Shown: one piece after another, positions 7,026 to 35,567 of the stretch
How positions within the stretch are numbered: position 1 is the first letter of the stretch
Layout of the letters: each line of letters begins with the position of its first letter
Source of the DNA: Segetibacter sp.
Lineage (GTDB): Bacteria; Bacteroidota; Bacteroidia; Chitinophagales; Chitinophagaceae
Length of the DNA: 39,554 nucleotides
Direction: 5' to 3'
NCBI GenBank assembly: GCA_025963675.1
Contig: JAOQAJ010000143.1
Span: 1 to 39,554, forward strand
Notes under the pieces: generated by a model
The model's input: the letters and a program-made list of their open reading frames with translations, nothing else
What the model was told of the DNA's origin: nothing
Databases searched by the model: none
Translations under genes and position numbers: made by a program

Positions 7026-9206
7026 TTATTGAGGAACGTTTATAGTTGTGTTTACCATCGTAACCGAAGCGTTCAGAGATAGGGCTCTGCCATTCAATAC
7101 TGTTTGAACAGCATTGCCTGCGGTAGAGAAAGTGACGCCTGCAGAAGCAATGATAGTTCCTGTCATGATACCACCACCGGCTCCGTTAATAACAGCTGCG
7201 CTTCCTACATACCAAAATACATTTTTAGGTAAGCCTCCGTTGATCATATTTACACTTTTGGCACCTTGTGGTCCCGCAATACCAACTGTCAAGCCTGCAG
7301 CCGTCTGGAAAATCCAAACTGCGTTGGGATCACCTTTAGCATCGAGTGTAAGATTTCCGTTTGTTATTTTAAATGTGCCGCTGGCTGATTTGTAGGTGCC
7401 AGGAGCTAAGGTTAATCCACCTAGTTCGCCAGCGCCAGGATCAGTGCCGCCGGGCTTAGATGCAGGCGAAATGCTGTTGTAAGCAATCGTTGCGTCAGAC
7501 AAACCTTTTGTTGCTGCTGCAAAAGAGGTAGCGTTGCCTGGAGTTGGAGGAGCTGTATAAATTCTACCTGTTACGTTTCCTACATTTAATGGTGTCTCAG
7601 TGTAGATGTCGCCCGTAGTTCCATCGTGAAAGCCGGTAATTAAAGTAGATGCACCGGTTGTTCCAATACTACCATTGTTAATGATTGTATTTAATCCCTG
7701 GTTTGTGATTCCTGCACTGCCTCCGAAGGCTCCATAAAGAGCGGCACTTCCCAATGAAGGAGGTGCTATGACCGGAGGTTGTGTTGTAAAGCTCCACACA
7801 TAGTTATTGGCCAGGGTATTTCCTGCAAGGTCTTTAGCACCAGTAGTTATGGTTGCGGTATAAGTAGTATTTGGGCTTAAATTAGCGACAGGTGAAAAAG
7901 TTGCTTTTATACCTGAATAACTAACTGTTCCAGCAACAACTGCTGCTCCATTCTTTAATGAGAAAGTTGCTGTTGAAATACTTAACGGATCCATGGCCTC
8001 GCTGAAATTTGCAGCGATTTTTTTATCAAGCACCACATTAGTGGCATTATTAACCGGGTCGGTAGAAATGACGGTTGGCCTTACTATATCAGCGGCAGCG
8101 CCGGTTGTAAAGCTCCAGATATAATCACTTACCAATCCATTACCTGCAAGGTCTTTTGCGCCTGTAGTGATTGTAGCTGTATACACTGAATTGGGTGACA
8201 GATTCGCTGCCGGTGAAAAAGTTGCAGTTGTACCTACATATGTTACGAGGCCAGTAATCACTGTTGTTCCCTGTTTTAATGTAAAGGTTGCGTTAGCTAT
8301 TGTAGTGGGGTCCATTACCTCGCTAAACGTGGCAGAAACTTTTGTATTGAAGGCTACGCCGGTCGCTCCATTTGCAGGGACTGTTGAAATTACAGTAGGT
8401 GCGAGAACGTCTGCTGAAGCGCCTGTTGTAAAGCTCCAAACATAACTGCTTGCCAGGCTATTGCCGGTAATGTCTTTAGCACCTGTAGTAATTGTAGCTG
8501 TGTAGGTGGTGTTAGCCAAAAGGTTACCTAAAGGAGAAAAAACCGCTGTTGTTCCTATATAAGTAACACCGCCATTTACCGATGTGCCACCGTCTGTTGT
8601 ATTTGTAAGGGTAAAGCCTGACGTAACAGAAGAAGAGTCCATCACCTCACTGAAAGTAGCTGAAATGTTTTTGTTAAGTGCAACCCCTGTTGCCGCGTTG
8701 ATAGGGTCAGTAGCAGTAACAGTAGGTGCTGTAATATCAGGACCTGCACCTGTTGTAAAGCTCCATACATAATTACTTATCATCGCATTTCCTGCAACAT
8801 CTTCTACACCGGCCAATACGGTGCCCGTGTAAGTGGTATTTGGTTTGAAATTAGTTGTTGGTGAAAAAGTTACAGTTGCATCTGTATAGGAAATTACACC
8901 TGCGATTGGCGTAGTGCCTTGTGTTAACGTAAATGTTTTAGCGTTGAGCGTTGACGGATTCATTCCCTTGTTAAACGTTGCACTTACCTTACTATTAAGA
9001 CTTACGGCCTCAGCAGTATCTTTAGGGTTTGTAGAAATGACGATAGGGCAGACGCTAGTTAGTCCTACTTCCTCCATAACCTTTTTACATCCGGCTCCGA
9101 TAAGCACCAGAAGTAGTAGAAAATACCATTTGTTGTTGAAAATTTTAGAATAACCTTTACCTCTGCGTAACCGGTTACTCTCTGTAATGAAAGACATCTG
9201 CTTCAT
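7026..9206 (-). CDS. Lipoprotein with four Big_5 Ig-like repeats and a C-terminal DUF3494 (ice-binding-like) domain
   Basis: Four repeats of the type APTVISTVPANGATGVAFNTKVSATFSEVMDP...YVWSFTTGA; C-terminus LGSAALYGAFGGSAGITNQG...VWIFQTAAGLTVG...NVFWYVGSAAVINGAGGGIMTGTIIASAGVTFSTAGNAVQTVLNGRALSLNASVTMVNTTI; lipobox LIGAGCKK. Confidence 0.9.
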   Translation of the reverse strand: MKQMSFITESNRLRRGKGYSKIFNNKWYFLLLLVLIGAGCKKVMEEVGLTSVCPIVISTNPKDTAEAVSLNSKVSATFNKGMNPSTLNAKTFTLTQGTTPIAGVISYTDATVTFSPTTNFKPNTTYTGTVLAGVEDVAGNAMISNYVWSFTTGAGPDITAPTVTATDPINAATGVALNKNISATFSEVMDSSSVTSGFTLTNTTDGGTSVNGGVTYIGTTAVFSPLGNLLANTTYTATITTGAKDITGNSLASSYVWSFTTGASADVLAPTVISTVPANGATGVAFNTKVSATFSEVMDPTTIANATFTLKQGTTVITGLVTYVGTTATFSPAANLSPNSVYTATITTGAKDLAGNGLVSDYIWSFTTGAAADIVRPTVISTDPVNNATNVVLDKKIAANFSEAMDPLSISTATFSLKNGAAVVAGTVSYSGIKATFSPVANLSPNTTYTATITTGAKDLAGNTLANNYVWSFTTQPPVIAPPSLGSAALYGAFGGSAGITNQGLNTIINNGSIGTTGASTLITGFHDGTTGDIYTETPLNVGNVTGRIYTAPPTPGNATSFAAATKGLSDATIAYNSISPASKPGGTDPGAGELGGLTLAPGTYKSASGTFKITNGNLTLDAKGDPNAVWIFQTAAGLTVGIAGPQGAKSVNMINGGLPKNVFWYVGSAAVINGAGGGIMTGTIIASAGVTFSTAGNAVQTVLNGRALSLNASVTMVNTTINVPQ

Positions 9207-11616: not shown

Positions 11617-12054
11617 ATGAATAGCAATGTCGATAATAACGGACCGGTAATAATAATAGAAGATGATATTGACGACCAGGAAATATTCGCAGAAATATTT
11701 AAACATTTAGCGTTTACAAATGAATTGATCTTTTTCGGAGACGGGCAAGAAGCACTTGACTACCTAACCACCACTGAAAAAATTCCTTTTATCATAATTT
11801 CTGATATTAACCTTCCTACGATGGACGGGTTTGAATTAAGAAAGAAAATTAGGGAAGACGCCAAATTAGAAGTTAAATGTATCCCTTACTTGTTTTTTTC
11901 CACGGCTATGAATCAAAAGTCTGTAATTGATGCTTATAGTGCATCTTCTCAGGGATTTTTTGTAAAAGAAAACTCTATGGCTGAATTAGAAAAAACCATA
12001 AAGGTGATAATGGAATATTGGAAAAGATGCGCTTCGCCTAACAGTTTTTCTTAA
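11617..12054 (+). CDS. Single-domain response regulator (CheY-like)
   Basis: VIIIEDDIDDQEIFAEIF...IIISDINLPTMDGFELRKKIR...FFSTAMNQKSVIDAYSASSQGFFVKENS. Confidence 0.9.
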   Translation: MNSNVDNNGPVIIIEDDIDDQEIFAEIFKHLAFTNELIFFGDGQEALDYLTTTEKIPFIIISDINLPTMDGFELRKKIREDAKLEVKCIPYLFFSTAMNQKSVIDAYSASSQGFFVKENSMAELEKTIKVIMEYWKRCASPNSFS

Positions 12055-16003: not shown

Positions 16004-16441
16004 ATGACACCTACAACGAGCAATCCAAATACTATAATTATCATTGATGATGATATTGACGACGTTGAACTTTTCCAGGAAGGTTTTAAGCAATTAGGAG
16101 TTGAAAATGAAATAATGGTCTTTACTGATGGCAATAAATTCTACGATTACATTTCTACCACTAGCAATAAATCCTTTTTTATTTTCTGCGATATTAATAT
16201 GAATGGGCTTAATGGTTTTGAACTTAAAAAGAAGATTTTTGATAACGAAGAAATACGATTGAAGTGTATTCCATTCCTGATGTTGTCAACCAGTGGTGCT
16301 CCTAAGAGTGTACTGGAAGCGTATAGTCTTAACGTGCAAGGTTATTTTATAAAACCAAACAGTGTTAGTGGAATAAAAGACATGTTTGAAATAGTGGTAA
16401 AATACTGGTCTATATCCCAACGCCCTGCATCACAACAATAA
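16004..16441 (+). CDS. Single-domain response regulator (CheY-like)
   Basis: IIIIDDDIDDVELFQEGFKQLG...FIFCDINMNGLNGFELKKKIF...MLSTSGAPKSVLEAYSLNVQGYFIKPNS. Confidence 0.9.
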   Translation: MTPTTSNPNTIIIIDDDIDDVELFQEGFKQLGVENEIMVFTDGNKFYDYISTTSNKSFFIFCDINMNGLNGFELKKKIFDNEEIRLKCIPFLMLSTSGAPKSVLEAYSLNVQGYFIKPNSVSGIKDMFEIVVKYWSISQRPASQQ

Positions 16442-21624: not shown

Positions 21625-22470
21625 ATGAAAAAAATACTTGTACCTACCGACTTTTCCGAAAATGCGACCAATGCTCTTGACTACGCTGTTAACTTAGGAG
21701 TAAAAACAAATGCAGAAATTGTTATCCTGAATGTTTTTACAAATATTGATACTACTTTCTCGAGTAGAAAAAAGCTAATTAATGAATATAATGCTATGCT
21801 TTGCAGGAATATCGAGGAGCAATTGAATGAGCTTCAGCAAAGGCTGCTTTTAAAAAATGCAACAGCAAGGCTAACTGTTAAAATATATAACGGAGAGGTG
21901 CATGGTTCAATATTACAATGTGCGGCAGATGAAAATGCCGACCTCATAGTAATGGGCACTCGTGGAGCTAGCGGCCTTAAAAGAATATTTATTGGCAGCA
22001 CAACAGCCAACATTATTGGCAATACTACTTTACCTGTTTTAGCTATACCCCAAGAAGTTGAATGGCACGGGCTTGAAAATATTTTGTTTGCTTCCCGGCA
22101 CCTTGAAGTGGATGATAACGTATTAATACCCCTTTTTGAATTAGCAAGTCTGAATGCTTCACAAGTGCATGTAGGGGTGTTTACTGACACTGACGACTCC
22201 GATGCAGCTGATTATATTGAACACGGCGAATTGTTAAATCTTTATCATCAGCAATTGCCGGCAAGAAATAAAGGGATACAATTTAAAACAGTACATTTAG
22301 AAGGCAATGAATTTGATACTACCGTTCAGAATTATATTAAAGACAGCAAAATCGATATGCTGGTAATGACAACACATAAAAGAAATTTTTGGGAAAGTAT
22401 TTTTAACGGTAGTATGACTAAAGAGATGGCCTGTCACATAAACATACCGCTGCTGGCTATTCCGGTATAA
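21625..22470 (+). CDS. Universal stress protein, tandem UspA domains
   Basis: MKKILVPTDFSENATNALDYAVNLG; VMGTRGASGLKRIFIGSTTANIIGNTTLPVLAIP (ATP-binding-type motif); second, degenerate domain ending MTTHKRNFWESIFNGSMTKEMACHINIPLLAIPV. Confidence 0.95.
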   Translation: MKKILVPTDFSENATNALDYAVNLGVKTNAEIVILNVFTNIDTTFSSRKKLINEYNAMLCRNIEEQLNELQQRLLLKNATARLTVKIYNGEVHGSILQCAADENADLIVMGTRGASGLKRIFIGSTTANIIGNTTLPVLAIPQEVEWHGLENILFASRHLEVDDNVLIPLFELASLNASQVHVGVFTDTDDSDAADYIEHGELLNLYHQQLPARNKGIQFKTVHLEGNEFDTTVQNYIKDSKIDMLVMTTHKRNFWESIFNGSMTKEMACHINIPLLAIPV

Positions 22471-22579
22471 GTAGTCATCTGTACTGCTTTCAAAGTGTCA
22501 CCTACGTTTGATAAACGATTTCTCATACAAAAAAAAGTACTCATTCCTCTTTTTACCACTCGTCTTAAAACTATTGCAC

Positions 22580-23419
22580 ATGAAAAAGTTCTTAGCCGTC
22601 TTTGATGGATACAAAATCTCAAAAAGCACAATGGCTTATGCTGAAGAACTTGCAGCTACTGCAGATGCTCATTTGGTAGGTGTGTTTCTGGATGATTTTC
22701 TTTATCGTACCTATAGTGTTGGAGAAATTTATAAAAAATATGAAAAACCGCAGGAGGTGATAAAACAGCTAGACGAAAATGACAAAATGAAAAGGGATGA
22801 CGCTGTGCTGCTATTTCAAAAAAGCTGCGAAAAAGCAAAAATAAGCTTCTCCATTCACCGCGATAAAAGTATTGCGCTGCAGGAACTGAAGCTTGAAAGC
22901 ATGTTTGCTGACCTTATTATAATAAATGAACATGAAGATTTTATGCAGCTTAAAGAAAAAATGCCTTCCCGCTTTATGAAAGATTTATTAGCTGACGTGC
23001 AATGTCCGGTATTAGTAGTGCCGGAAAATTATAAACCAATAGAAAAAATTGTGTTGTTATATGACGGTGAACCTTCATCTGTTTATGCAGTAAAAATGTT
23101 CAGCTATCTCTTGAATCGATTTAAAGAGGTGCCTGTAGAAGTCTTCACAGTCAACAATTGGAAAACAGATCTACATCTTCCTGACAACAAATTGATGAGG
23201 GAATTTATAAAAAGGCATTTTCCAAATGCTACCTATTCAGTAACAAAGGGAGATGCAGAAGAACAGATAATCGGTTATTTAAATAACCACAAAGAGAATG
23301 AGTTAGTTGTATTAGGCGCTTACCGCCGAAGCGAAATATCGCGCTGGTTTAAAACCAGTATGGCCGATATATTAATAAAAGAATTAAATACGCCTCTTTT
23401 TATAGCTCATAATAATTAA
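22580..23419 (+). CDS. Universal stress protein (start preferred at 22580, not 22508)
   Basis: MKKFLAVFDGYKISKSTMAYAEELAATADAHLVGVFL...CPVLVVPENYKPIEKIVLLYDGEPSSVYAVKMF...LGAYRRSEISRWFKTSMADILIKELNTPLFIAHN. Confidence 0.92.
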   Translation: MKKFLAVFDGYKISKSTMAYAEELAATADAHLVGVFLDDFLYRTYSVGEIYKKYEKPQEVIKQLDENDKMKRDDAVLLFQKSCEKAKISFSIHRDKSIALQELKLESMFADLIIINEHEDFMQLKEKMPSRFMKDLLADVQCPVLVVPENYKPIEKIVLLYDGEPSSVYAVKMFSYLLNRFKEVPVEVFTVNNWKTDLHLPDNKLMREFIKRHFPNATYSVTKGDAEEQIIGYLNNHKENELVVLGAYRRSEISRWFKTSMADILIKELNTPLFIAHNN

Positions 23420-25315: not shown

Positions 25316-25433
25316 TAAAGATGCATGGTGCAGGTCACAAGAACTCTCCTAACTAAAAATGAACTTTAATTAATAAAAACTTTCAATTAAGTAGAGCAAA
25401 TTTTACCACCCATAATTGCTAAAACTCATTTTT

Positions 25434-26273
25434 ATGAACAAGGTAATTGCTGTCTTTGATGACCGAAAAATTTCAGAAAGTACGTTGGATTATGCTATTT
25501 ACTTAGCTAAGAATTTCAATGCTCATATTGCAGCGACTTTTATTAATGACATAACTTCCCATTCAACAGCAGCCGGCGGTGAAAATGGGTATATTGTTAC
25601 TGACAGACGCGCGATAAATACAATTGTAAAAAGAAAGGATCAGGTAGGCGTCACTTTTAATAAGAGGCTTCAAACCACGTTTGATGCAAAAGGGGTACGT
25701 TATAACATTAACGCAAACAAATCATTTGCCCTTGAATCTTTAATAAACGAAAGCTATTACGCGGATATGATAGTAATAGATGGAAATGAGCAATTTATTC
25801 ACCTTGACTTCTCAAAGCCAGCTCGCTTCCTCAAACATGTTTTATCCGGTGCGCGATGCCCGGTAATGGTTGTTCAGGCAGGATTTAAGCCTATCGAGAA
25901 GTTTGTTTTTGCTTATGACGGCACTCCTTCATCAGTGTATGCGATCAAACAATTCAGTTATCTCTTTCCTTCAATAAGAGAGCAGGAGGTAGAAATACTT
26001 TCGATAAAAGATGATAAGCATACTAACAATTTTCCTGATCAGCATTTTGTGAAGGAGTTGCTTAACCGAAAATACACTTCAGTTATTGAATCAGTCATTA
26101 TAAACAATAATGCAGATGAGGCTTTTGTTGATCGGATGCAGGCAGAAAAGAAGAATTGTATGCTTGTACTTGGAGCATACGAGCGAAGTACTTTTTCAAG
26201 ATGGCTTTATCAAAGTATCGCTGATACTTTGATATCAAAATTAGACATCCCATTATTCATAGCGCATAAATAA
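25434..26273 (+). CDS. Universal stress protein, paralogue of the 22580 gene (start preferred at 25434)
   Basis: MNKVIAVFDDRKISESTLDYAIYLAKNFNAHIAATFI...CPVMVVQAGFKPIEKFVFAYDGTPSSVYAIKQFSYLF...LGAYERSTFSRWLYQSIADTLISKLDIPLFIAHK. Confidence 0.92.
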   Translation: MNKVIAVFDDRKISESTLDYAIYLAKNFNAHIAATFINDITSHSTAAGGENGYIVTDRRAINTIVKRKDQVGVTFNKRLQTTFDAKGVRYNINANKSFALESLINESYYADMIVIDGNEQFIHLDFSKPARFLKHVLSGARCPVMVVQAGFKPIEKFVFAYDGTPSSVYAIKQFSYLFPSIREQEVEILSIKDDKHTNNFPDQHFVKELLNRKYTSVIESVIINNNADEAFVDRMQAEKKNCMLVLGAYERSTFSRWLYQSIADTLISKLDIPLFIAHK

Positions 26274-28652: not shown

Positions 28653-29057
28653 CTACTCTTTAATGTTTAGCTGGCCATTGCAAAGTTTTTGCACAATAAT
28701 CTTCAACTCCTTAAACGACTTTGGTTTTACAAAGTAGTAGTTTGCTCCGTTACCTAAACAATAATCAATATCAGCTTTATTACCGGAAGTAGATAATATT
28801 ACAATCGGTACTCCGTTGTATTTATTCTCCTTTCTAATTTCGTTTAAACATTCTTTGCCCGTTTTACGTGGCATATTTAAATCAAGAAAGATAGCATCTG
28901 CTGTAGAAATTTTATTTAAGAGACTTATCAATTTCACTCCATCGGTAGCGACGGTTATTTTAATATCCGGACAAATTTCATCGACGGCAGATTGAAACAT
29001 TTCTACATCATCCGCATCATCGTCCGCCAGGAGAATATGTTTAATAGGGAAGGGCAT
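28653..29057 (-). CDS. Single-domain response regulator (Rcp1-like)
   Basis: HILLADDDADDVEMFQSAV...AIFLDLNMPRKTGKECLNEIR...VILSTSGNKADIDYCLGNGANYYFVKPKSF. Confidence 0.93.
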   Translation of the reverse strand: MPFPIKHILLADDDADDVEMFQSAVDEICPDIKITVATDGVKLISLLNKISTADAIFLDLNMPRKTGKECLNEIRKENKYNGVPIVILSTSGNKADIDYCLGNGANYYFVKPKSFKELKIIVQKLCNGQLNIKE

Positions 29058-29850: not shown

Positions 29851-31311
29851 ATGTCTTTATCGGTTACCCGTCTCAACGTTAGGCTCAATCCAGACTATAA
29901 AAAAGTTATTCCCAGGTTTTTTAATACCGGTGATGCTCGTTCCCAAATTCTTATTAACCGGATATTGGAGATGCAGGAGAATGAGGCAACTACTTTATTA
30001 CACCAGGTTTTTTACGAGTTCTCAATAAGCTATAAGAATATTGACGAAATATTTATAAAGCATTTTAAACAAATAAGACACCTGTTAAAAGAGGAAGAGC
30101 AGCTCACCTTATCTGAAGATAAAAAACTGCTTATTGGTGCCTATTTTACAATGGAGTATTCTATCGAAGCAGCCGCTTTGTTTAATCCTTCCATAGTAGA
30201 AGATCCGGACCAGCGTGGTGCAGGTATCGGGCAAAAAAAAGTGATTGTAAGTTTCAGGGCAACTGGTGAAAGTCATATTTCCTCTATTGTTTTTAGACAA
30301 GGGTTATTGGATGAAGATGCCGTAATTCATTTTGAAACATCAGGAAAGTTTATCAGGGAGGGGCTTGTAACACAACAAAAAAAAGACAACAAAGCAGACT
30401 TCAAAGATCTGTTAGGACAAATGGTATTGCCGAAGGGTTTATATGCAATTATCGTAGATCAGTTAAAAGAGGAGTTTTCTTATAAAGAAATCGAGTCGGT
30501 TTTAAAAAATGCATTGCTTAGCGTGGAGTCACCAACTGAGAAAAAGAAGATCAAGATCGACATTCTCCGTATGGCGAATACAAATTACGAGTTGCACTTC
30601 CCCGTTGACTCGCTTTTATCAGAGCGGGTTATTTTTCCGGTAACGAGAGCTGAGAAAAATGGAATAGAGGATGCGAGATTTGTACAATTTGCAGAAGACG
30701 ATGGTTCGCTCACCTATTACGCAACATATACCGCTTATGATGGTTCTTTTATTTTACCTCAATTAATAACAACCACCGATTTTCTCCACTTTAAAATTGC
30801 TCCCCTTCACGGCAAAGCTGCTGTCAATAAAAACCTTGCTTTATTCCCCCGCAAGATCAATGGGCAATATGCAATGCTCTCACGCATAGACAACATCAAT
30901 AACTATATCATGTTTTCTGATGATATTTTTGTATGGGAAGAAGCCACATTGTTGCAACGGCCAAAATATCCGTGGGAATTTATACAAATAGGCAATGCAG
31001 GTTCACCGATTGAAACAAGCAAGGGGTGGCTGGTTATAACTCATGGAGTAGGTGCGATGCGTAAATATTGTTTAGGTGCAAGTTTGTTTGACCTAAACAA
31101 TCCTACTATAGAATTGGGACGTTTGAAAGAACCATTATTGGTACCTAATGAAGATGAGAGAGATGGTTATGTGCCCAATGTGGTTTATTCCTGTGGTTCA
31201 ATTATTCATGCGGATAGGTTATTCATCCCTTATGCAGTTTCTGATCATGCTTCATCCTTTGCAACTGTTCCGCTTCAGGAATTGTTGGATGAGATAATGA
31301 GGAAAAGTTAA
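29851..31311 (+). CDS. Glycoside hydrolase/phosphorylase family 130 with N-terminal extension
   Basis: AALFNPSIVEDPD, VTRAEKNGIEDARFVQFAEDDG (GH130 G-x-E-D catalytic Asp motif), NKNLALFPRKINGQYAMLSRID, IQIGNAGSPIETSKGWLVITHGVG, GYVPNVVYSCGSIIHADRLFIPYAVSDHAS. Confidence 0.88.
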   Translation: MSLSVTRLNVRLNPDYKKVIPRFFNTGDARSQILINRILEMQENEATTLLHQVFYEFSISYKNIDEIFIKHFKQIRHLLKEEEQLTLSEDKKLLIGAYFTMEYSIEAAALFNPSIVEDPDQRGAGIGQKKVIVSFRATGESHISSIVFRQGLLDEDAVIHFETSGKFIREGLVTQQKKDNKADFKDLLGQMVLPKGLYAIIVDQLKEEFSYKEIESVLKNALLSVESPTEKKKIKIDILRMANTNYELHFPVDSLLSERVIFPVTRAEKNGIEDARFVQFAEDDGSLTYYATYTAYDGSFILPQLITTTDFLHFKIAPLHGKAAVNKNLALFPRKINGQYAMLSRIDNINNYIMFSDDIFVWEEATLLQRPKYPWEFIQIGNAGSPIETSKGWLVITHGVGAMRKYCLGASLFDLNNPTIELGRLKEPLLVPNEDERDGYVPNVVYSCGSIIHADRLFIPYAVSDHASSFATVPLQELLDEIMRKS

Positions 31312-31348
31312 AGCAGGCAGAGGTCTTGTTCTGGTAGATCCAGGGAGA

Positions 31349-31774
31349 TTATTCATATTCACTTGGCGCTATACATTCCTGCCAATACTCAATTATTTTT
31401 TTAATTGTGCGTTCTAAATGGTCTGTTGTGTTAGGCTTAATAAAAAACCCTTGTACAGACATAGCATAAGCATCTATAACCGATTTTTTATTAGCGCCAG
31501 TTGTAAAAAACAGGTAAGGGATACACTTTGTTTGTAATAGTTCATTGGTAAATACTTTGCTCCTTAGTTCAAATCCATTCATCTTTGGCATATTGATATC
31601 GGAGAGAATAAGAAAAGGTTTTACATCTGTTCTATTTATAAATTCAAGCGCTTCATTGCCGTCGATAAAATAGACCACTTCATTTTCGTAACGCAGCTTT
31701 TTAAATATTTCTACTAACATTTCCTGGTCATCTAAATCATCTTCTATCACTATAATTGGTCCTGACTTATTCAT
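31349..31774 (-). CDS. Single-domain response regulator (CheY-like)
   Basis: IIVIEDDLDDQEMLVEIFKKLRYENEVVYF...LILSDINMPKMNGFELRSKVF...FFTTGANKKSVIDAYAMSVQGFFIKPNT. Confidence 0.92.
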   Translation of the reverse strand: MNKSGPIIVIEDDLDDQEMLVEIFKKLRYENEVVYFIDGNEALEFINRTDVKPFLILSDINMPKMNGFELRSKVFTNELLQTKCIPYLFFTTGANKKSVIDAYAMSVQGFFIKPNTTDHLERTIKKIIEYWQECIAPSEYE

Positions 31775-31936
31775 AAAATAATTAATTAATAATCTTCTTT
31801 ATCATATTCACAACGAGCACTTTTATGTTGTTGAATTTGATAACAATAGTTGTCGAAATTCCTTAGAAGCTCCTTTAGCTTATAAGTTATCTAATAGTCG
31901 GCTAAGTGTATTACCTGGTTGAAAAAAACAGTTCAA

Positions 31937-32956
31937 TTAAATACTGTTCGATTTCCTAACTACCTGCTCATACAATTTAAGATAGTTTAACGCCATCACC
32001 TCACTGCTAAATTTTTCCATAGCATGCGCACGGCATTCACACCTTTTTATAGAAGCTATCTTTTCAACTGCAAGAATTGCTTCTTCAATAGTATTCACTA
32101 AAAACCCGGTTTTGCCATCAACAATCAATTCTTTCATCGAGCCCCTGTTGAAGGCGATTACAGGTGTTCCACACATCATCGCTTCTGCTACGCTTAGCCC
32201 GAATGGTTCTTCAAAACTAATGGGATGTAGTAGTGCAATTGCATCTCCCAGTAATTGGCTGCGTTGTTCAGGTCCTGCATTACCCATATAGATGACAGAG
32301 GATTCGTTTAGATAAGGAGCAACTTTTTCATCGAAGTAGGATTGCTCTTGTATAAGACCGCAAAGGATAAGTTTTCTATTTGATTGAATCGCTATCTGAA
32401 TAGCTTCATAAGCTCCTTTATGTGGATGAATTCTGCCAAAATATAACAGGTAATCACCCTTTCCCTGCCCGAATTCAAACTGTTGCTCGTCTAAGCCATT
32501 GTAAACAGTATCAAGGTATTTTAGATCAGGATGCCTGTCGCTATTGCTGATAGAAACATACGAAGTGTGTGGGTTATATTTTTTATAAACGGGAACAATT
32601 TGTGGTGATGAAAAACCATGTATCGTTGTTATGACGGGAGTACGGATTAAACCTGAATAAGTAAGGGGAAGAAAATCGAAGTGATTGTGAATGATATCAA
32701 ACTTTTGAGCCTGTTCCATTATATTGGAGATATGCAGGCATTCAATAACTTTCGCATCCCCCGGAAATTCTCCTAGTGGCTTTTCCCTTATAGATTTCAG
32801 TTTAGCCGTAGTGATAGAATCTCCTGTTGCAAACAACGTTACATCTAACCCTTGCTTTACCAATCCTTCTGTTAATACAGAAGCTACCTGTTCCCACGGA
32901 CCATAATTGCGCGGCGGAGTGCGCCAGGTAACAGGAGCTAAAATGGCTACTCTCAT
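31937..32956 (-). CDS. Glycosyltransferase family 4 (start preferred at 32956)
   Basis: MRVAILAPVTWRTPPRNYGPWEQVASVLTEGL; LLYFGRIHPHKGAYEAIQIA; HPISFEEPFGLSVAEAMMCGTPVIAFNRGSMKELIVDGKTGFLV. ATGA overlap (32953-32956) with the upstream gene's stop. Confidence 0.93.
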   Translation of the reverse strand: MRVAILAPVTWRTPPRNYGPWEQVASVLTEGLVKQGLDVTLFATGDSITTAKLKSIREKPLGEFPGDAKVIECLHISNIMEQAQKFDIIHNHFDFLPLTYSGLIRTPVITTIHGFSSPQIVPVYKKYNPHTSYVSISNSDRHPDLKYLDTVYNGLDEQQFEFGQGKGDYLLYFGRIHPHKGAYEAIQIAIQSNRKLILCGLIQEQSYFDEKVAPYLNESSVIYMGNAGPEQRSQLLGDAIALLHPISFEEPFGLSVAEAMMCGTPVIAFNRGSMKELIVDGKTGFLVNTIEEAILAVEKIASIKRCECRAHAMEKFSSEVMALNYLKLYEQVVRKSNSI

Positions 32957-34038
32957 TCTGCAATTGCCGCTGCTACTACCATATGTGAAATCCAATATGC
33001 CAAAGTGCTTTCTGCGCCCTGGTTTAGGTTAATGCCTTCGCTATGTAATCCATCCGCACATCCACCCGTGCTTGCATCGTACAAAGGCAGCCCCAGATCG
33101 TTAGTACCAAGAAACCATTGATAACTCTGGTACATACGGCTTAAGTATTTCTTGTTGCGGGTAACTCTAAAAGCTTGTTGATAAAAAAGAACCATTGCCA
33201 TTGCATCAATACCCTGTTGATCAAATCGTGCTGCGGCGCTTCCACGCCTAAGCCAGCCCTCGTTTCCGATAGGGCTTAAAATACCATAGTGAAACACCTT
33301 CGACTCCAGAAAACGCATAGCCTCTAAAGCGATAGTCAAATAGTTTTCATCACTTGAAACCTCATAGGCATTTAATAAAGCGAGGGGTAATATTGCGTTG
33401 TCATAGGTAAGAACCGGTTCGAACCAGTGCCACTTATTTTCTTTATTTTCTTCATACATCCCCACCATTTTATTGGCAAGTTTTATCACAAGATCTCTTT
33501 TCACATCGTCGGGATAATTGTATTTAATATATTGGCACAGGCCGACAATAGAATTAGCAATGCCGCGTACAGAAACAAGCTGGTCTATATGCCTGTATGC
33601 TTTGGAAAATATTTCCGCACCTGTTTTACTAAGCAGGTGGGAAGGAGCTTCATTAACGAGAAATCCAAGGGCCAAAATTGTGCGGCCAAAGGAGTCTTCA
33701 GACCCCCGTTCTTCATGCGCAACTTTAGTATAGCTCATAAAATTCTTAAACTCGCCATTCTCCGTCTGCATGTAGTGAATAAAGCTTAAGTATACCTGCA
33801 GAAGTGGTAATACAGTCGGATTTTGTTTATCCTTGCACGCCCATACAGCTAATAATAAGGCCCTTGCATTATCATCTATACAATATCCTTCTTTGCGATT
33901 TGGTATGTTGAATATGGCATGTTGTATAATACCGGTATCATCTGTCAGGCTTTTGATGTGAGAGAAATTAAATTCCGGCAAGTCTTTATTCTTTAGAACA
34001 CGCGGGTTTGAATAAAGTAATACCTCTGCTGTTTCCAT
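32953..34038 (-). CDS. (alpha/alpha)6-barrel (six-hairpin glycosidase-like) protein
   Basis: IPNRKEGYCIDDNARALLLAVWACKD...ERGSEDSFGRTILALGFLVNE...WHWFEPVLTYDNAILPLALLNAYEVS...GWLRRGSAAARFDQQGIDAMAMVLFY; Trp/acidic helix-pair pattern of such folds. Confidence 0.75.
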   Translation of the reverse strand: METAEVLLYSNPRVLKNKDLPEFNFSHIKSLTDDTGIIQHAIFNIPNRKEGYCIDDNARALLLAVWACKDKQNPTVLPLLQVYLSFIHYMQTENGEFKNFMSYTKVAHEERGSEDSFGRTILALGFLVNEAPSHLLSKTGAEIFSKAYRHIDQLVSVRGIANSIVGLCQYIKYNYPDDVKRDLVIKLANKMVGMYEENKENKWHWFEPVLTYDNAILPLALLNAYEVSSDENYLTIALEAMRFLESKVFHYGILSPIGNEGWLRRGSAAARFDQQGIDAMAMVLFYQQAFRVTRNKKYLSRMYQSYQWFLGTNDLGLPLYDASTGGCADGLHSEGINLNQGAESTLAYWISHMVVAAAIAE

Positions 34039-34294
34039 AAATTTTGTTTTAATACTTATTGCAATATTGTAATTGTCTTAAGAGTCGCCTCTTAACCCAA
34101 GTTTTTATTTGGCAACCTTCATCAACTCTTTGTGTATCTCAGGTTGTGTCAACTCGAACATCCCGACAGTTGTTTCCGGACACTTGTACAGTTATTTTAT
34201 ATTCGTCATTGATAAGAAAAAAAGACAGCTTACCTGTTTATGACTGCTTGTCAATTGGTAAGTAAGATTGCTCGCGCTCCCTTTTTGCAATCAC

Positions 34295-34318
34295 GTACAA
34301 GAGTGCGACGCAACGATG
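34295..34318 (+). repeat. Core copy of dispersed intergenic repeat
   Basis: GTACAAGAGTGCGACGCAACGATG; matches 12526-12545 (minus) and 20588-20611 (minus). Confidence 0.7.
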
Positions 34319-34364
34319 TTTATAGTAGCACATCCGCCCGGCTCATAAAAGCAATTAATGTTTT

Positions 34365-35567
34365 CTAGTTAACGTATTGATTGGTTAACCCAGGTGTAAA
34401 TAAGGGAACTTCCAAAATGTTTAGAAATAAATTGGTATGCTTTTGACCTACTTTTTCCCACGTTGTATTCCTCGTTTTAAGGAAAGCGTTATTACTCATT
34501 TCTTTTTTCAGTTCAGGGTTTTTAAGAATCCTGATTGCATGTTCCGCAAGTTCATGATCCTTACCCTGGGTTAGAATGACGCCTGTTCTTTCATCCAGCA
34601 TTTCCTTTGCTAAAACAAATGAATTTGAAATGATCGGGCACCCGGCACTCATTGCATATAAGAACGTACCACTAACTGCCTGGTTGGGATCTTTTGAAGT
34701 AAAGAGGTATATATCCGTCAGGGTTAAATATTCCATCAGTTTTTTTGTAGGAACATATTCATTAATTAGTCTTACGTTTTCTTCAAGTCCATTATCAACT
34801 ATTAGTTGCTGTAAATAGTTGCGGTATTTTTCTCCTTCCTCCTCTAATAAATTAGGATGCGTTTGACCCAGAACAATATAAACGGCATCAGGAAAACTTT
34901 CACTAATTTCTTTCATAGCTAAGATGCCCTTTTCGATTCCTTTGTTAGGGCTCAACAGGCCAAATGTGGTAAGCACATGTTTATTGTTGAGATTGTATTT
35001 AAGTTTTAACTCGTCACTATGTCTTGTGCTGTTTGCGTGCGTCCCGTGCGGTATTATGATTACTTTATCGGAACCTAACTGGTAGTCTTCCTTCAGTATC
35101 CTCGCAGAGTTTTTAGTCATCACAATAACTCTATCAGCAAGCAATCCTATTGCCTGAACGATGTGTAACATTTTTACCGCAGGAGCAGGAAGCACCGTAT
35201 GAAAACGAATGATGAAAGGCTTTTCAATCAATGATAAAAAGCCAAGTAAATATTCACCCAGTTCCCCACCGAATAAACCAAACTCGTGTTCTATACAAAG
35301 AAGTTTAATAGTAGGATCTTTGTTAATGTTCTTGGCGGTTTCAAGACACGAATCCAGTAGGTGCCCGTCCATTACCATAGTAACCGGTGATTCATATAGC
35401 TTGAAATTCCTTTTTTTATCGAGAGCGCAAATATTAATAACCATTTCTTTCGCTATTTCGTTGTCAATGGCATTTACGAGATCCTGGGTAAAGCTGGCAA
35501 TTCCACATTTGCGTGGTGGGAAAGTACTTATAAAGAGAATCTTAGATTGCAGACCGGATGTAGCCAT
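34365..35567 (-). CDS. Glycosyltransferase family 4
   Basis: ILFISTFPPRKCGIASFTQDLVNAI; HVLTTFGLLSPNKGIEKGILAM; DIYLFTSKDPNQAVSGTFLYAMSAGCPIISNSFVLAKEML. Confidence 0.92.
   Translation of the reverse strand: MATSGLQSKILFISTFPPRKCGIASFTQDLVNAIDNEIAKEMVINICALDKKRNFKLYESPVTMVMDGHLLDSCLETAKNINKDPTIKLLCIEHEFGLFGGELGEYLLGFLSLIEKPFIIRFHTVLPAPAVKMLHIVQAIGLLADRVIVMTKNSARILKEDYQLGSDKVIIIPHGTHANSTRHSDELKLKYNLNNKHVLTTFGLLSPNKGIEKGILAMKEISESFPDAVYIVLGQTHPNLLEEEGEKYRNYLQQLIVDNGLEENVRLINEYVPTKKLMEYLTLTDIYLFTSKDPNQAVSGTFLYAMSAGCPIISNSFVLAKEMLDERTGVILTQGKDHELAEHAIRILKNPELKKEMSNNAFLKTRNTTWEKVGQKHTNLFLNILEVPLFTPGLTNQYVN

Follow-up and report, generated by a model that had tools for sequence, protein, structure and literature searches.

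What do a GH130 enzyme, two GT4 glycosyltransferases and a six-hairpin barrel protein do together in the genome of a Segetibacter sp.? We interrogated a stretch of 39,554 nucleotides from this bacterium (contig JAOQAJ010000143.1; below, the window), in which a GH130 gene on the plus strand is convergent with minus-strand genes for GT4a, SixH and GT4b, and a response regulator gene lies in between. The original prediction for this DNA had read the locus as a possible undescribed mannoside-type pathway. Its coordinates, strands and families proved correct in an open reading frame (ORF) check with Pfam, and the ATGA overlap it reported is present in the sequence. The genes are laid out as follows:

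29851-31311, plus strand: GH130 protein of 486 aa (PF04041, E 3e-32, residues 257-480)
31349-31774, minus strand: receiver-only response regulator (PF00072, E 3e-14)
31937-32956, minus strand: GT4b, a canonical EX7E GT4 of the TeGSS-like (glucosylsucrose synthase) family (phmmer match to 7fg9, E 4e-70)
32953-32956, minus strand: ATGA stop/start overlap of SixH and GT4b, read from the sequence
32953-34038, minus strand: SixH, an (alpha/alpha)6-barrel protein of 361 aa and candidate inverting glycoside hydrolase (AF2 model, PDB match 7tem)
34365-35567, minus strand: GT4a, a GT-B glycosyltransferase of 400 aa (PF00534, E 2e-19)

The overlap suggests that SixH and GT4b are likely translationally coupled, while 326 bp separate GT4a from SixH in the window. 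Our analysis indicates that this widespread gene set probably assembles a sugar chain containing mannose inside the cell and recycles it.

The prediction depended on the genes also clustering in relatives, and GH130, SixH and the GT4s do cluster in most related loci. SixH has matches in 51 of 200 genomes of the host's family, and the same gene set is present in the neighbourhoods of 40 SixH places and of 80 named loci. Neighbourhoods were counted in the 78 related loci whose flanks reach 5 kb or more in each direction: GH130 is found in 67 and GT4b in 49, and 56 have the long GH130 gene on the opposite strand, against 3 with it on the same strand. In a 396-genome sample of the host phylum, SixH is present in 76, long GH130 in 57 and both in 48 (odds ratio 59, Fisher P 1e-32, statistics that ignore shared ancestry and are uncorrected for phylogeny). 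In 18 of the 48 co-occurring pairs the two genes were not seen within 12 kb of one another, so their co-retention does not come from linkage alone. Because the set recurs in most related loci and its two main families co-occur across genomes, the cluster is not due to chance.

The prediction of four separate genes holds for the clustering, but GT4a and SixH are normally a single polypeptide with GT4a as its N-terminal half (GT4a::SixH, 105 of 121 loci); separate genes occur in the window, in a handful of its close relatives, at two Chitinophaga loci and at one locus of Bathyarchaeota. The host's family also contains a second cassette type, with a shorter GH130 (~350 aa) directly upstream of the GT4a::SixH fusion (L061-L073). 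The response regulator is located between the genes as predicted, but it is a stand-alone regulator outside the conserved set. Stand-alone response regulators, universal stress proteins, histidine kinases, amylase and YkuD were all rejected as cassette members, as they are not conserved. Five loci (L057-L060, L144) encode a GH130 with a receiver domain appended at its C-terminus, an architecture that to our knowledge is not described; these fusions suggest phosphorelay control in some lineages and a possible meaning for the window regulator beside GH130, though it is unconserved there.

A search of genome contigs gave at least 584 confirmed matches, from which 80 loci were kept. Titles from outside Bacteroidota among them include Ignavibacteria, Acidobacteriota, Aminicenantes, WOR-1, Desulfuromonadaceae, Bacillota, Planctomycetota, Lentisphaeria, Nanoarchaeota and Bathyarchaeota; metagenome-assembled genomes (MAGs) are numerous among the 80, and individual taxon labels may be in error. 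From plasmid records come Alphaproteobacteria, Fusobacteriota and Deinococcota as well. Overall, the set spans roughly ten bacterial phyla as well as archaea. SixH has no match in phage and viral sequences, and a phage or viral origin was rejected.

Genes adjacent to the cassette in other lineages are the strongest new evidence for its substrate. The predicted mannoside is supported by ManA (mannose-6-phosphate isomerase), PMM (phosphomannomutase) or ManC (mannose-1-phosphate guanylyltransferase) genes that neighbour the cassette on alphaproteobacterial plasmids, in a Bacillota MAG and in Gelidibacter. At least one of the three is found in nine of 15 annotated plasmid regions; several of these regions are near-duplicates, and at least four distinct mannose-gene arrangements were counted. 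The order in Sphingobium is groES-groEL, ManC, ManA, GT4a::SixH, GH130, PMM, with the genes overlapping or nearly so. ManC lies upstream in Sphingomonas plasmids, with grpE-dnaK-dnaJ and two Hsp20 genes nearby and, in one plasmid, a universal stress protein gene as well. ManA is upstream of the cassette in Devosia, Sinorhizobium and Neorhizobium, and a phosphomannose isomerase (PMI) and a HAD-IIB protein (HAD-type PMM) stand beside it in S. paeninsulae; in Rhizobium an AGE-family epimerase is downstream instead. The Bacillota MAG carries a ManC-PMM fusion of 1044 aa directly downstream of GT4a::SixH (L149:10290-13421); in Gelidibacter the genes GH130-PMM-PMI stand in a row a few kb upstream. 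The ManC gene of the window genome is on a different contig.

The GH130 protein also has an affinity to enzymes of beta-mannosides. It matches the family profile PF04041 with 112 bits against a cut-off of 26, its AF2 model has a pLDDT of 90.6, and the long N-terminal extension that had been predicted is real, forming a helical region in the model. The following parts of the protein are relevant here:

29932-30144, plus strand: N-terminal helical region, residues 28-98 (AF2), conserved in the long type and characteristic of the subfamily
30391-30573, plus strand: helical insert in the propeller, residues 181-241 (AF2)
30667-30672, plus strand: Glu273-Asp274, candidate catalytic acid, equivalent to BT3780 Glu141-Asp142 and invariant in the alignment
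30829-30831, plus strand: Lys327, equivalent to BT3780 Lys199 and invariant in the alignment

The candidate acid is part of an ED(P/A)R motif (E273-D274-A-R276) that is invariant throughout, and Lys199 of BT3780 has been reported as a determinant of beta-1,2-mannoside specificity (PMC4599007). The best PDB profile match is Teth514_1788, a 1,2-beta-oligomannan phosphorylase (E 8e-45), and the next solved relatives are the beta-1,2-mannobiose phosphorylase 7fip, Uhgb_MS and Lin0857; beta-1,4 enzymes and hydrolases rank later. The top Foldseek matches are again to Teth514_1788, with a TM-score of 0.76 by target and about 0.5 when normalised to the query, the latter being low because the model carries extra helical parts. 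Foldseek matches 1-35 are all GH130 structures, and the fold is the five-bladed propeller of the family. Membership of GT108 was rejected: no GT108 chain is among the sequence matches, and MPT-4 (6q50) comes at Foldseek rank 42 (E 1.9e-5). We conclude that the protein, in which no signal peptide is seen, is probably a beta-mannoside phosphorylase or reversible synthase. Two further GH130s are encoded in the window genome (L001, L003), one of them secreted and nearest to BT3780-like hydrolases, while the other adjoins ORFs named by eye as an AGE-like epimerase and a permease-like protein; the window GH130 is therefore a third, distinct kind in its genome. Elsewhere, a second, short GH130 adjoins GT4a::SixH at L090, L103, L108, L112, L114, L123, L136, L148 and L186, and short GH130s beside the fusion have Arg at the long type's beta-1,2 Lys position in the sequences listed.

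Among solved proteins, GT4b comes nearest to the UDP-glucose:sucrose alpha-1,2-glucosyltransferase TeGSS (7fg9; PMC9909042), with ~39% identity in an alignment of 332 residues. The UDP-diphosphate contacts Tyr18, Arg179 and Lys184 are conserved in 70 of 70 GT4b sequences and Glu256 in 69, with one gap, whereas the acceptor-edge residues W10, Y97, R117, N122 and W254 of TeGSS are all replaced in the aligned GT4b sequences, several of them uniformly. With its UDP contacts kept and its acceptor residues changed, GT4b would take its sugar from a UDP-sugar and pass it to an acceptor that is not sucrose. The prediction of a mannoside pathway needs correcting for GT4b, which resembles a UDP-glucose-type alpha-glucosyltransferase, not a mannosyltransferase. 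For GT4a, the best PDB match is a weak one to the GDP-mannose-dependent PimB' (E 2e-5), and the following motif is characteristic:

34653-34682, minus strand: GT4a motif Q296-x2-SGT-x2-YA replacing the EX7E glutamates (Q296, S299, G300 and A305 conserved, 116 sequences)

The AF2 model of SixH has a pLDDT of 91.5, and its nearest solved relative is YPO2471 (7tem, function unknown; E 4e-14), followed by AGE epimerases and GH76 mannanases. Across 76 sequences, six acidic positions (D55, D56, D115, E207, D329 and E343) reach a conservation of at least 95%, a level that no His attains. Given these acidic positions and the lack of a conserved His, the residue pattern is more in keeping with a hydrolase than with an AGE epimerase; the latter was rejected for want of conserved catalytic histidines, its similarity to SixH being one of fold only.

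The glycan was predicted to be endogenous rather than taken up from outside, a reading in keeping with the GDP-mannose genes and with the absence of transporters. No SusC/SusD pair or transporter is among the other ORFs of the window that were scanned with Pfam, the cassette gene set itself contains no transporter and no signal peptide, and no importer with secreted hydrolases, the criterion of a polysaccharide utilization locus, is among the recurrent neighbour families of related loci. On the strength of the conserved neighbourhood, the adjacent mannose genes, the affinity of GH130, the lack of transporters and signal peptides and the presence of ManC in the genome, we lean towards a conserved cytosolic pathway in which an oligosaccharide containing mannose is both synthesized and turned over. 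This oligosaccharide would be linked to GDP-mannose and mannose 1-phosphate and be mannogen-like in character.

In such a pathway, fructose 6-phosphate would be converted to mannose 1-phosphate and GDP-mannose, as the neighbouring genes in other lineages suggest. GT4a, usually fused to SixH, would then put an alpha-linked sugar, probably mannose from GDP-mannose, on an acceptor or primer, to which GT4b, where present, may add an alpha-linked glucosyl-type residue from a UDP-sugar, as its conserved donor site implies. GH130 would add or remove beta-mannosyl residues, probably beta-1,2-linked, with alpha-mannose 1-phosphate as donor or product, and SixH may trim or recycle an alpha-linked part of the chain in the manner of mycobacterial MmpH. 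Retaining GT4 enzymes form alpha bonds from nucleoside diphosphate-alpha-sugars, so that any beta-mannosyl bond in the pathway would have to be made by GH130 or by some enzyme that the set does not include. GH130, as the only member whose family chemistry extends to beta-mannosides, could make that bond itself, if it is present, much like Uhgb_MS and the mannogen enzymes of Leishmania. The product may serve as a carbon reserve, a protective solute or both. The conserved set, the mannose genes of other lineages and the family and active-site assignments are observed directly; mannose use by the window copy, the exact glycan and its linkage types, the direction of GH130 and the role of SixH are what we infer.

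Several observations weigh against this reading. Among the basic residues that may bind phosphate in GH130 phosphorylases, R345 is kept, but a near-invariant Gln379 stands where the solved phosphorylases listed have Lys or Arg, so phosphorolysis is not certain and the nucleophile or donor may differ. GT4a is without the usual EX7E glutamates across the 116 sequences, so that its donor and even its activity are only putative. GT4b is UDP-glucose-like, which suggests that the glycan may be mixed, and the cassette has no mannose gene next to it in the window, nor at most loci of Bacteroidota.

The resemblance of GT4b to TeGSS raises the question of whether the product is mainly a glucose-based compatible solute, which GH130 only trims or caps with mannose, or whether GH130 acts on a non-mannoside. 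GT4b is related to glucosylsucrose synthase over its full length and conserves the UDP contacts (PMC9909042). However, its sucrose-contacting positions are changed and fixed, and the alphaproteobacterial cassette, the version with ManA, ManC and PMM, has no GT4b yet keeps GH130, and we consider such a solute unlikely. A surface polysaccharide, glycolipid or protein glycan, with GH130 and SixH as editing enzymes, would suit GT4 enzymes, which are common in such pathways, and GDP-mannose genes, which are often part of them. It is distinctly improbable, given that the annotated neighbours read and the recurrent neighbour families include no lipid-linked transferase for initiation, no flippase, no polymerase and no export gene, and that a GH130 phosphorylase domain and PMM are signs of a link with central sugar phosphates.

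We give little credence to a catabolic cassette for imported beta-mannosides, in which GH130 would supply mannose 1-phosphate for GDP-mannose. It has a precedent in the Thermoanaerobacter cluster with two GH130s, ManC and a GT4 (PMC4264767), but the ABC importer and GH5 of that cluster are not in this set, and the window genome has separate GH130s of catabolic type elsewhere. That loosely related glyco-genes are held together by gene drift or mobile islands with no shared pathway is hardly credible, despite copies on plasmids and in islands, in view of the repeated adjacency in many phyla, the GT4a::SixH fusion and the co-occurrence of unlinked copies.

Returning to the cytosolic mannose-containing glycan, we compared the gene set with known systems. 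Leishmania mannogen is likewise a cytosolic mannose polymer linked to GDP-mannose and mannose 1-phosphate, in which five-bladed propeller enzymes make and degrade beta-1,2-mannan (PMC8950772, PMC3290622). Its enzymes are GT108 dual transferase-phosphorylases, whereas the window protein is a GH130, and mannogen as described has no counterpart of the two GT4s or of the (alpha/alpha)6 protein. The mycobacterial methylmannose polysaccharide genes (ManT, MmpH, MeT1) resemble the present set in forming a conserved cluster, in which a GDP-mannose-dependent mannosyltransferase is accompanied by an (alpha/alpha)6 hydrolase for recycling mannan inside the cell (PMC9883506). That cluster lacks GH130, whereas the present set lacks MeT1 and a 3-O-methyltransferase; no methyltransferase family is recurrent beside the cassette in related loci, and no PDB chain named MmpH is among the sequence or fold matches listed for SixH. 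The Thermoanaerobacter sp. X-514 cluster Teth514_1785-1796 shares GH130 beta-1,2-oligomannan phosphorylases, ManC and a GT4 with the set (PMC4264767) and includes, in Teth514_1788, the nearest solved relative of the window GH130. Unlike the set, it has an ABC importer and GH5 but no SixH, and it was proposed as a salvage pathway. TeGSS (Tll1591) of Thermosynechococcus is like GT4b in length-wide identity and UDP contacts but differs at the acceptor site, which suggests that GT4b is a relative with another acceptor and not the sucrose enzyme.

None of mannogen, the methylmannose polysaccharide and the Thermoanaerobacter cluster has this gene combination, and the set is apparently undescribed. 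In agreement with the prediction of a new pathway, our search of the open-access literature turned up no description of it, though one may exist elsewhere; nor did that literature yield anything relevant on GH130 with heat shock or compatible solutes, or on the product name 'pesticidal protein Cry7Aa'. A bolder and quite tentative possibility is that the set is a bacterial and archaeal counterpart of mannogen. GT4a would make an alpha-mannosyl primer, the long GH130 would extend and consume a beta-1,2-mannan with mannose 1-phosphate or GDP-mannose, receiver domains would exert control in some lineages, and the stress or reserve polymer would have spread on plasmids with chaperone genes.

If the cytosolic pathway is as we propose, an intracellular mannose glycan would be widespread in bacteria (by the SixH count, about one-fifth of the phylum genomes) and present in archaea, and many proteins named only 'GH130' or 'glycosyltransferase family 4' would gain a function. 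It would also connect the heat-shock islands of alphaproteobacterial plasmids with a glycan of this kind. The stress link holds for part of the plasmid copies and is not general; an association across Bacteroidota is unsupported, with universal stress protein genes at only 3 loci and Hsp20 at 3. Plasmid islands in Alphaproteobacteria (L189, L192, L193, L185, L197, L200) carry the cassette together with GroEL, DnaK, GrpE, Hsp20 or RpoH genes.

In a flavobacterium (L116) and two archaeal MAGs (L146, L147), a PIG-L-type deacetylase and another GT4 adjoin GT4a::SixH, and L116 and L147 also have a GH100/GDE_C-like protein; these loci may represent a variant pathway with an N-acetylated sugar. The window itself contains three universal stress protein genes 3.6-9 kb from GH130 (21625-22470, 22508-23419 and 25416-26273) and four stand-alone receiver-domain proteins (11617-12054, 16004-16441 and 28653-29057, besides the one at 31349-31774). 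PAS-type histidine kinases and a receiver-Crp regulator (1379-2434) are also present, and 7026-9206 encodes a 726-aa protein in which bacterial Ig-like repeats are combined with an ice-binding-like domain (PF11999).

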